This document shows, one piece after another, positions 39,431 through 42,128 of a stretch of 64,000 bases of DNA. The translations under genes were made by a program, and so were the position numbers. The notes below the pieces were generated by a model. That model searched no databases and was not told the origin of the DNA. It saw only the letters and a list, made by a program, of their open reading frames with translations. Position 1 is the first letter of the stretch, and every line of letters starts with the position of its first letter. This stretch comes from Chloroflexus aggregans DSM 9485 (GTDB lineage Bacteria > Chloroflexota > Chloroflexia > Chloroflexales > Chloroflexaceae): positions 3,795,353 through 3,859,352 of the forward strand of contig NC_011831.1 in the NCBI RefSeq assembly GCF_000021945.1. The letters run 5' to 3'.

Positions 39431-39475
39431 GCAACAGGTCTTTAGTCCTGATTTTACAGAACAGGTGCGCGAAAG

Positions 39476-39496
39476 CCCACACCCTTTAGGGGTGGG
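39476..39496. repeat. IS left-end stem-loop
   Basis: CCCAC-A-CCC/GGG-GTGGG with loop TTTAG-like and flanking GCGCGAAAG ... GATGAAGCGCG. Subterminal palindromes of this kind are the TnpA recognition sites in IS200/IS605 elements. Confidence 0.75.
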
Positions 39497-39576
39497 ATGA
39501 AGCGCGATACTGATGTGTAGATACACATTGCACACCCACACAACATCATCTACACAATCTATGATATCCTGTTGCT

Positions 39577-39975
39577 ATGAAACAGATGGACCACTCCAAC
39601 GATCCGTGCGGGTTGCTCATCAACTCCCACTTGGTCTGGTGCCCCAAGCGGCGACGGAAGATGGTAGGTGGCCGCCGAACAACACGCCTGGAAGAACTAA
39701 TTCGTGAGACGGCGCCAGAGCTGGGGTGTGCGATGGTGGCGCTTGAAATCATGCCTGACCATCTCCATCCGGTTGTTTCGGCAACGCCGCACTGGGTACC
39801 CAACCACATCGTTAGTCGGTTCAAGGGCAAAACCAGCCGCATCGTGCGACAGGAGTTTCCTTTCCTGCGACGTATGCCGTCCTTGGGGACTCGTTCGTAT
39901 TTCTGGTCAACGGCTAGACACGTTTCCGCCGATACCATCCGGCGGTATAGCGAAGCGCAGCGCACACGCGGATGA
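39577..39975 (+). CDS. tnpA: IS200/IS605 Y1 transposase TnpA
   Basis: 132 residues, normal size. It keeps the HUH motif H62-L-H64 in MPDHLHPVVS, and the candidate catalytic Tyr124 in IRRYSEAQR. N-terminal LLINSHLVWCPKRRRKM is typical. The enzyme is a dimeric single-strand DNA endonuclease/ligase that cuts and joins the ends of the element through a covalent Tyr link. It appears intact, so the element may still be mobile. Its stop overlaps the tnpB start (ATGA). Confidence 0.9.
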   Translation: MKQMDHSNDPCGLLINSHLVWCPKRRRKMVGGRRTTRLEELIRETAPELGCAMVALEIMPDHLHPVVSATPHWVPNHIVSRFKGKTSRIVRQEFPFLRRMPSLGTRSYFWSTARHVSADTIRRYSEAQRTRG

Positions 39976-41141
39976 AGACGTTTGTCTCCAAGTTGCGTCC
40001 AACACCTGCTCAAGGAGCGTGTCTTTCTGAGACGGTCGAAACCTGCCGCCAACGCTACAACCACGCTTTGAGCGAGCGCAAGACCGCCTATCGGGAGCGT
40101 GGCGAGTCCATCGGCTTTGCGCGCCAATGCGCCAGCCTGCCTATGCTGAAACGGGAGGTGCCATATTTGCAGCGTGTCCACTCCCAAGTGGTGCAGGATG
40201 TCGTGCGTCGAGGAGACCGCGCGTTTCAAGCGTTCGTTCGGCGGGTGAACGCCGGCGAAAAGGCGGGGTATCCGCGCTGCAAAGGGCAGGGCCGGTACGA
40301 TAGCTTCACCTATCCCCGGTGGGGCAACGGCGTCAAGCGGGAGCAGGGATGGCTCGTCCTCTCCAAAATCGGCGCTATTCGGCTGCACAACGATCGCCCG
40401 GTTGAGGGCACGCCAAACATCTGTATCATCGTTCGCAACGTGGATGGATGGTACGCACACATCGTGTGTGACGTTGCACCGTCGCCGCTCTCACCAACCG
40501 GCAGGTCGGTAGGGATTGATGTTGGGCTTGAGTCGTTTGCGACGCTGTCGAACGGCGTGCAGATTGCCAACCCACGCCACTATCGCGCCGCCGAACGCAC
40601 GCTGAAACAAGCACAACGGTGGCTTTCTCGTCGCGTGAAGGGCAGCAATCGCTCCCGTAAGGCACGCACGTTGCTTGCGAACGCTCACCTGAAGGTCAAG
40701 CGGGCGCGACGGGACTTCGCCCACACAATCGCCCGCGCACCGGTCAATGAGGATGACCATATTGTGGTTGAAAAACTGAACATTCGGGGGATGGTACGGA
40801 ACCATCCCCTTGCCAAATCGATCTCCGACGCCGGATGGGGCATCTTTCTGAATATCCTCTTCGCCAAGGCTGCACGTGCTGGGCGAGTCGTGGTGGCAGT
40901 CAACCCTGCCGGAACGTCGCACATATGCGCGCGCTGTGGCGAGTCCGTTCCCAAACGACGTGCCGTTCGCTGGCACTCTTGCCCATAGTGTGGTTGTGCG
41001 TTGCACCGCGATCATAATGCTGCGCTCAATATCCTAAAGAAGGGCGGGGGTACCGCCTTCGGGGAGGCTTTGCCGTTGGGCGAGCCGCAGAACCGAGAAC
41101 CCCCACAGGCTTTAGCCGTGGGAGTGTCAGAAGCGAGGTAA
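39972..41141 (+). pseudogene. tnpB: TnpB RNA-guided nuclease interrupted by one in-frame TAG
   Basis: The frame reads 338 residues, then TAG at 40986-40988, then continues for 50 codons to TAA at 41139-41141 with clear TnpB sequence (CGCALHRDHNAALNILKKGG). RuvC-I D183 (SVGIDVGLESF) and RuvC-II E267 (IVVEKLNI) are before the stop. The zinc ribbon has C319, C322 and C337 before it; the fourth Cys (codon 340) and the RuvC-III Asp (codon 347, in RDHNAA) come after it. The truncated 338-residue protein would lack the third catalytic acid and could not cut DNA. A single C-to-T change of CAG would create TAG, so this is a recent inactivation, unless the codon is read through. The last codons also run into the right-end structure and beyond it. 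Confidence 0.88.
41102..41122. repeat. IS right-end stem-loop
   Basis: CCCAC(A)GGCT-TT-AGCCGTGGG, one bulged A. In TnpB elements the 3' end of the guide RNA scaffold overlaps this region and the guide would be the DNA just downstream (about 41130 on). That part is inference. Confidence 0.75.
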
Positions 41142-42128
41142 GACCCCAATGGTGCGCAGGTAGGCGATTGAAGTTGCGTACTGTTGATCTTCGTACAAGC
41201 TGATCTGCTCTTCACCGGAACCGCGTTCCCATGGCGTGCGCCAGTCATCGTCACGGAGGCGCATCGTTTGGGCAAACAGCCGCAAGACCGGCAGCACCTC
41301 ACGCACATCGCAGGGAGGGTACCCTTGCCACCAGTCATCATCGAGAATACGCACGTGACGAGCACTATGACTGACCAGCTCAATCTGACACGCGACATCA
41401 GGCGCATACTGCTCGATCAGTCCAAACAGGCGACGAATATCCAAATCGCCCTCGCCGAGCGCACAACGCACGAGTCGCCAACCTTGGGTGGTGGGGTACG
41501 TTTCATAATCGGCCAGATGTACATTACGAATCAGTGGGCCGAGCCGTTCAAACGCCGCATACGGTGTTTCACCGACAACAAGGCAGTTAACCGCATCGAA
41601 GCAGACACCGATGAATGGGCTATCGACTGCGGTGCAGATCGCAGCAAGATCGGCACTAGTGGCGTCTTGGTGGTTCTCAACCGCCAACACGATGTTATGT
41701 TCGGCGGCCAGATCGATCACTGCGCGCAGACGGGCCGTGACATCGGCCAAATGGGCCGGCCAGTTGTCGGTGAAAGGACGACGATACCCTTCAAGTACCG
41801 GGCTGATCAGGACACGCAGTACGCGGGCGCCGAGCATCGCCGCTGCCGGAATATGAGCCTTTAGCAGATCGATGTCGACAATCTCGCTATCGGCAACCGG
41901 TGTGAGACCACAGCGATTGCACCGCTCGCGGAGTGTACTAAGCCGGTTGGGCGACAGATCGGGTAGTATACCGAGCGGAAACTCAATACTTTGCAGGCCA
42001 GCGCGGGTTGCCAGTGTGATGATATCCTCGACACCAAGTGGATGACTAACGGCACGCACCGTCCCACGCCCGATCAGGCCACAGCGATAGCTAAAACTTA
42101 AAGCGGAAAGACCGATAAACACGGCCAA
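41127..42128 (-). CDS. Xylose isomerase-like TIM-barrel sugar isomerase/epimerase
   Basis: 333 residues. Barrel features: GLQSIEFPLGILPDL, HIPAAAMLGARVLRV, VIDLAAEHNIVLAVENHQ (metal-ligand Glu in VEN), GVCFDAVNCLVVGE (Asp ligand), NVHLADYET (His ligand region), CQIELVSHSARHV (Glu ligand). The family (AP endonuclease 2 superfamily) isomerises or epimerises keto-sugars, or processes inositol-type compounds; substrate not readable. Odd: its stop codon TGA (41127-41129) falls at the right end of the IS element, so the last residues (YLRTIGVLPRF) may end earlier or differently than in the pre-insertion gene. Confidence 0.8.
   Translation of the reverse strand: MAVFIGLSALSFSYRCGLIGRGTVRAVSHPLGVEDIITLATRAGLQSIEFPLGILPDLSPNRLSTLRERCNRCGLTPVADSEIVDIDLLKAHIPAAAMLGARVLRVLISPVLEGYRRPFTDNWPAHLADVTARLRAVIDLAAEHNIVLAVENHQDATSADLAAICTAVDSPFIGVCFDAVNCLVVGETPYAAFERLGPLIRNVHLADYETYPTTQGWRLVRCALGEGDLDIRRLFGLIEQYAPDVACQIELVSHSARHVRILDDDWWQGYPPCDVREVLPVLRLFAQTMRLRDDDWRTPWERGSGEEQISLYEDQQYATSIAYLRTIGVLPRF

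Follow-up and report, generated by a model that had tools for sequence, protein, structure and literature searches.

An amber codon in one tnpB copy of a mosaic IS200/IS605 family in Chloroflexus aggregans, and its probable sharing by short-patch gene conversion

The element at its locus

The window, a stretch of 64,000 nucleotides from Chloroflexus aggregans DSM 9485, carries one copy (L001) of an IS200/IS605-family element at the 3' end of an isomerase-like gene encoded on the minus strand (Table 1). The element is absent from the homologous site in all six congeners in which that site was matched, while the host gene had no match in the seventh congener (G002). Insertion would have altered only the last residue of the isomerase-like product. 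The G-TAA at the stop of this gene, whose complement is the TTAC target, is present in three of the six congeners. Across the family, TTAC stands at the left of 10 of the 12 gene-bearing copies and at the right of none (12 right flanks), meaning that there is no target duplication. It can also be seen at window positions 41127-41138 that the element was inserted at the isomerase-like stop codon, where its right end provides a new TGA.

Table 1. Features of the element and its surroundings (window coordinates)
Feature	Position	Strand	Basis or remark
TTAC target (presumed TAM)	39454..39457	+	Left flank; TTACA at the left boundary in 10/12 gene-bearing copies
Left end, inverted repeat visible by eye	39458..39576	+	Common to the copies and both ends-only elements
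tnpA, Y1 HUH transposase, 132 aa	39577..39975	+	Pfam Y1_Tnp, 97.2 bits; homologue comparison
tnpB, 338 sense codons before the amber	39972..40985	+	Pfam matches; family alignment
In-frame amber TAG	40986..40988	+	Between zinc cysteines 3 and 4
tnpB remainder in the family frame, with fourth Cys and RuvC-III Asp	40989..41099	+	Family alignment
Five-C run, frame-shifting	41100..41104	+	Longer by one than in 10/12 copies
Right-end hairpin region, to last shared base 41130	41105..41130	+	Family and ends-only copies
TAA read earlier as the proper stop	41139..41141	+	Host DNA outside the element
Xylose-isomerase-like TIM-barrel host gene, stop now from the right end	41127..42128	-	Congener comparison

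The tnpB gene of the window copy matches the Pfam families OrfB_IS605, Cas12f1-like_TNB and HTH_OrfB_IS605. Its amber codon is in frame and falls within a C-P-stop-C motif, upstream of the RuvC-III Asp, confirming the position given in the first-pass annotation. The RuvC-I Asp and RuvC-II Glu are present within the 338-codon part, and the fourth zinc Cys and the RuvC-III Asp lie 3' of the stop, outside the truncated product. A complete RuvC D-E-D together with a four-Cys zinc ribbon is therefore not found in any single product of this copy. When the intact sister copy L003 was aligned to chain 9yyg_A, the amber codon was placed, by hand count, at residue 353 and the Asp at residue 361; the same residues, 5-373, were matched in the chain group 8bf8/8ex9/8exa (E 2.3e-58). 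We take Asp361 to be the third catalytic residue of ISDra2 TnpB. The excerpted text of PMC11844463 names 8EXA as ISDra2 TnpB and describes a mutational scan in which only stop codons beyond residue 376 escaped depletion. Since the stop in the window copy aligns to residue 353, the truncated TnpB, judged from its sequence, is very probably inactive as a nuclease. This supports the earlier claim that the amber inactivates tnpB, the product being without both the fourth zinc Cys and the third catalytic Asp.

No stop was found at the homologous codon in any of the 74 other loci that cover it (75 matched, one without coverage; nine of the 74 are gapped there), a count in which some loci are one gene fetched twice, such as L152 and L043. 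Several groups were set aside beforehand: the family's own loci (L001-L012, L014, L018 and L050), the tRNA-pattern loci (L051-L077), the own-genome end, isomerase and target-pattern loci (L113-L150, including six congener isomerase loci), and L048, L049, L078 and L079, which duplicate the 78-79% outgroup copies.

The first-pass annotation described 50 conserved codons running from the amber to a proper stop. There are indeed 50 open codons, including the RuvC-III Asp in 'RDHNAA', but only about 37 of them (40989-41099) are in the same frame as in the sister copies. The length of the C run at 41100-41104 is shared by L010 only. Because of the extra C, the frame departs from that of the family and skips the native stop at 41113-41115, exits the element and reaches a TAA that is host sequence, so that the reading of this codon as the proper stop falls. 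The intact sisters L003-L007 have a TnpB of 380 sense codons, with a TAG stop that lies within the right-end hairpin region.

The right-end sequence, which is the source of a putative omega-RNA, is present in the window copy. The omega-RNA of ISDra2 overlaps the end of tnpB, according to the excerpted text of PMC8612924, and by analogy the omega-RNA scaffold of the window element probably also lies within 40989-41099. Its guide would begin at 41131. The right-end hairpin appears in the predicted fold, but shuffled sequences fold about as well as the stretch as a whole (z -0.47).

The annotation had also called tnpA intact. This holds for the reading frame, which is open, for the HUH His pair (DHLH) and for the catalytic Tyr (RRY), but not for three residues that are kept in the homologues compared and from which the window TnpA deviates. 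None of the nine full-length tnpA copies has the Trp or the Ile kept by homologues, and in the window copy a Gly is missing as well. Among the homologues the Trp is conserved in 12 of 12, the Gly, Tyr and Ile in all 11 that cover each, and the second HUH His in 11 of 12; these counts come from a table of 14 rows with L020 as the query, excluding two window rows (L148 and L141). The second HUH His is replaced by Pro in eight of the 12 family copies. L007, L009 and L011 have a tnpA deletion in common, and L009 additionally has an early stop.

Copies and lesions across the family

The genome, a single contig (C1) of 4,684,931 bases, contains 12 gene-bearing copies and two ends-only derivatives of this TTAC-target element. 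The gene-bearing copies carry tnpA and/or tnpB, and their matched segments show 91-96% DNA identity to the window copy; the left end is missing from L010 and L011. The presence of these 12 copies and two derivatives at different sites implies past spread. The closest copy to L001 is L002, at a distance of 4.42%; near-identical pairs are absent from the family, which thus gives no sign of recent movement. Outside this genome, the seven same-genus genomes gave no listed match above 36% identity, and three of them gave none at all. The nearest copies, at 78% identity, are in a member of the same family, Chloroflexales bacterium MAG.66 (G015). A degenerate right-end fragment of 78-82% identity (L140, C1:756474-756560) was also seen in the genome, near a weak, below-cut-off DDE_Tnp_1 match (C1:756942-757211).

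A full-length TnpB with all three catalytic residues is encoded by five of the 12 copies (L003, L004, L005, L006 and L007), and only L003 and L006 combine a complete TnpB with the HUH motif. The tnpB of L002 is interrupted by a TGA stop. L008, L009 and L010 have one in-frame 27-bp deletion in common, equivalent to window 40505-40531, that removes the RuvC-I Asp. Frameshifts affect L011 and L012, the latter also carrying the amber codon found in L001. The two ends-only elements, L118 (C1:62007-62224, 218 bp) and L119 (C1:3052655-3052871, 217 bp), have the same internal junction, which suggests mobilisation in trans. These ends-only copies and the deletions common to different sites show that defective forms have spread, through either trans mobilisation or conversion. 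Elements devoid of both genes have thus been able to spread; for the window copy itself, movement in the absence of a nuclease, as suggested earlier, is a conjecture.

Mosaicism, probable short-patch exchange and selection on tnpB

At the amber codon, codon 339, ten of the 12 copies have Tyr, and L012 has the same TAG as L001; in the two outgroup copies this codon reads Ser and Tyr. The tnpB match of L012 (C1:1050658-1051518, minus strand) also shares the change in the preceding codon. Differences between L001 and L012 at 40979 and 40999 limit the common patch to at most 19 bp; outside it the two are unexceptional members of the family, and overall they are 4.88% apart. Four alleles are unique to this pair within the family, in two patches (40491/40493 and 40985/40988). 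The allele at 40493 is also found in an outgroup copy and may for that reason be ancestral. From the sequences, it seems unlikely that both shared changes arose independently in the two copies. A patch of 19 bp or less in copies that are 4.88% apart is better explained by recombination than by two mutations or a sequencing error.

Copies of the family are mosaics at the scale of tens of base pairs, with linkage decaying within about 20 bp. In tnpB, 2561 of 4371 site pairs (94 two-allele informative sites, 12 copies) fail the four-gamete test, an incompatibility of 0.59, and r2 falls from 0.52 at 1-5 bp to 0.14 at 6-20 bp and to about 0.10 beyond. Clonal simulations on the FastTree tree (40 at each of three rate settings) gave a mean incompatibility of 0.20-0.38 and a maximum of 0.46, and on average 14-33 three-allele sites versus the two observed. 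The 22 transversion sites alone gave an incompatibility of 0.58. When gene conversion among 12 copies was simulated (12 runs per tract length), tracts of 25-50 bp came closest to the data; because the observed r2 at 1-5 bp (0.52) exceeds that of these simulations (0.31-0.40), no single tract length tried fits all distances.

A similarly scrambled site pattern was found in other genomes, in G027 (four copies) and G029 (five copies), and more weakly in G017 (four copies). These came from four other TnpB groups that were fetched, of which G022, with distances of 14-41% between its copies, was left out, as were three distant copies from G027. A control group of at least four close DDE_Tnp_1 or rve copies was found in none of four genomes, as judged from score lists. 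There is a small chance that TnpB itself drives the mosaicism, the breaks it introduces at excised donor sites being partly repaired from paralogous copies. If so, TnpB families would be a pool exchanging patches of tens of base pairs, in which dead alleles such as the amber hitch-hike.

Over the family as a whole, purifying selection acts on tnpB, and tnpA evolves almost neutrally. Across all copies, pN/pS is 0.86 for tnpA (95% bootstrap 0.48-1.72; window 39577-39971) and 0.23 for tnpB before the TAG (0.15-0.33; 39972-40985), with a bootstrap that treats copies without regard to common history; after the TAG (40989-41097) it is 0.61, given without an interval. This trend, with tnpB kept and tnpA drifting, is the reverse of a picture in which movement is maintained without the nuclease. 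Copies with dead and intact TnpB have similar tnpB values (0.245 vs 0.211), which fits patch exchange and recent death equally. Singleton changes lean to relaxation in the dead copies, with 14 nonsynonymous to 13 synonymous against eight to 17 in the intact copies, although the numbers are few. The private changes of the window tnpB before the TAG, four nonsynonymous and two synonymous, are too few to show constraint.

Origin of the amber allele and comparison with known systems

We consider it highly likely that the window carries a loss-of-function tnpB amber in one of 12 copies, probably shared via short-patch gene conversion. The allele would reach two copies by such conversion or by template switching in repair, and patch exchange would also help to keep the rest of a dead tnpB looking intact. 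A trace very similar to that of patch conversion alone would be expected if an amber copy had transposed and later exchanged sequence with other copies. The truncated protein would not cut DNA, and the site, if protected at all, would be so in trans, by TnpB from L003-L007 acting on the right-end RNA of the window copy.

The clean frame around the TAG might instead reflect a recent mutation in a copy that is still mobile by its own tnpA. The window tnpA, open and with its HUH motif and Tyr while eight of 12 copies have lost the second His, would suit this, as would the few private changes in the rest of the frame. It is nevertheless improbable, as the amber and its linked change also occur in L012, the frame carries an extra base at 41100, even the closest copy, L002, is 4.42% away, and the window TnpA deviates at three residues that homologues keep. 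The first-pass inference that decay is very young cannot be drawn, since the allele is in two copies, a second lesion is present and the copies are patchworks; for this last reason a clean frame around the TAG cannot date the stop, and the clean look of a single copy is no clock for decay. A sequencing or assembly error is extremely improbable: repeated elements are prone to mis-assembly, but here the same TAG and neighbouring change are found in two copies 4.88% apart, and misplaced reads would be expected to scramble the copies more coarsely than at tens of base pairs.

Readthrough, by a suppressor tRNA or in a context-dependent manner, could in principle yield a low level of TnpB, as the frame is open for 50 codons past the TAG. 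We regard this proposal as very improbable and found it to be unsupported. Although 27 loci match a CUA-anticodon/T-arm pattern, ARAGORN called tRNA genes at five of them and the anticodon CTA at none; this pattern covers part of tRNA space only, and more matches were obtained with its reversed control. Translation past the TAG would change frame at 41100 and continue into host codons, and the other amber copy, L012, has a frameshift upstream of its TAG. Efficient amber suppression would also extend the intact copies, since these end at TAG. It is just as doubtful that the 338-aa product is on its way to becoming an RNA-guided binder without nuclease activity, resembling the TldR repressors. 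The N-terminal and RuvC-I/II parts and the right-end region are retained, yet there is no convincing target: a search of the genome with TTAC plus 14 flank bases and up to three mismatches gave three matches, namely the element's own junction, a TTAC site with three guide mismatches and a GTAC site with two further mismatches. The frameshift in L012 also speaks against such a role, and the private changes, four to two, are too few to show constraint. Overall, the amber is a run-of-the-mill loss-of-function allele, in a gene whose kind is well known.

When an insertion sequence is present many times over, damage to a gene in one of its copies is commonplace, and by itself the amber is of little consequence; of more interest is the mosaicism that emerged alongside it. 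If exchange is usual among TnpB elements, it matters for the question of how nuclease genes remain under selection while transposases drift, and for that of whether cutting by TnpB feeds recombination between copies.

Dead copies kept similar by conversion have a counterpart, to judge by its title, in a 2009 study by Cordaux, in which gene conversion reportedly maintains nonfunctional transposable elements in an endosymbiont. In its general organisation, a Y1 HUH tnpA with a RuvC nuclease tnpB, the window element resembles IS608 of Helicobacter pylori and ISDra2. It shares the TTAC target with IS608, as given in the excerpted text of PMC8612924. Its TnpB is homologous to the ISDra2 chain group 8bf8/8ex9/8exa but breaks off at the position matching residue 353, ahead of Asp361, and its target is TTAC rather than the TTGAT of ISDra2. 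TldR proteins are described in the excerpted part of PMC13418256 as nuclease-dead, TnpB-derived repressors; like them, the window product is a TnpB relative predicted to be without nuclease activity, but unlike them it has neither a convincing target nor visible constraint, and the other amber copy is frameshifted. A close parallel in family structure is the IS605 family of Halanaerobium hydrogeniformans, which, according to the excerpted text of PMC7290912, is likewise multi-copy, shows stages of decay and signs of recombination between tnpB copies, and includes an ends-only derivative with proposed trans mobilisation. There, the evidence for recombination came from the sequences of inserts and the structure of elements, whereas here it is resolved site by site, and a nonsense allele is common to two of the copies.
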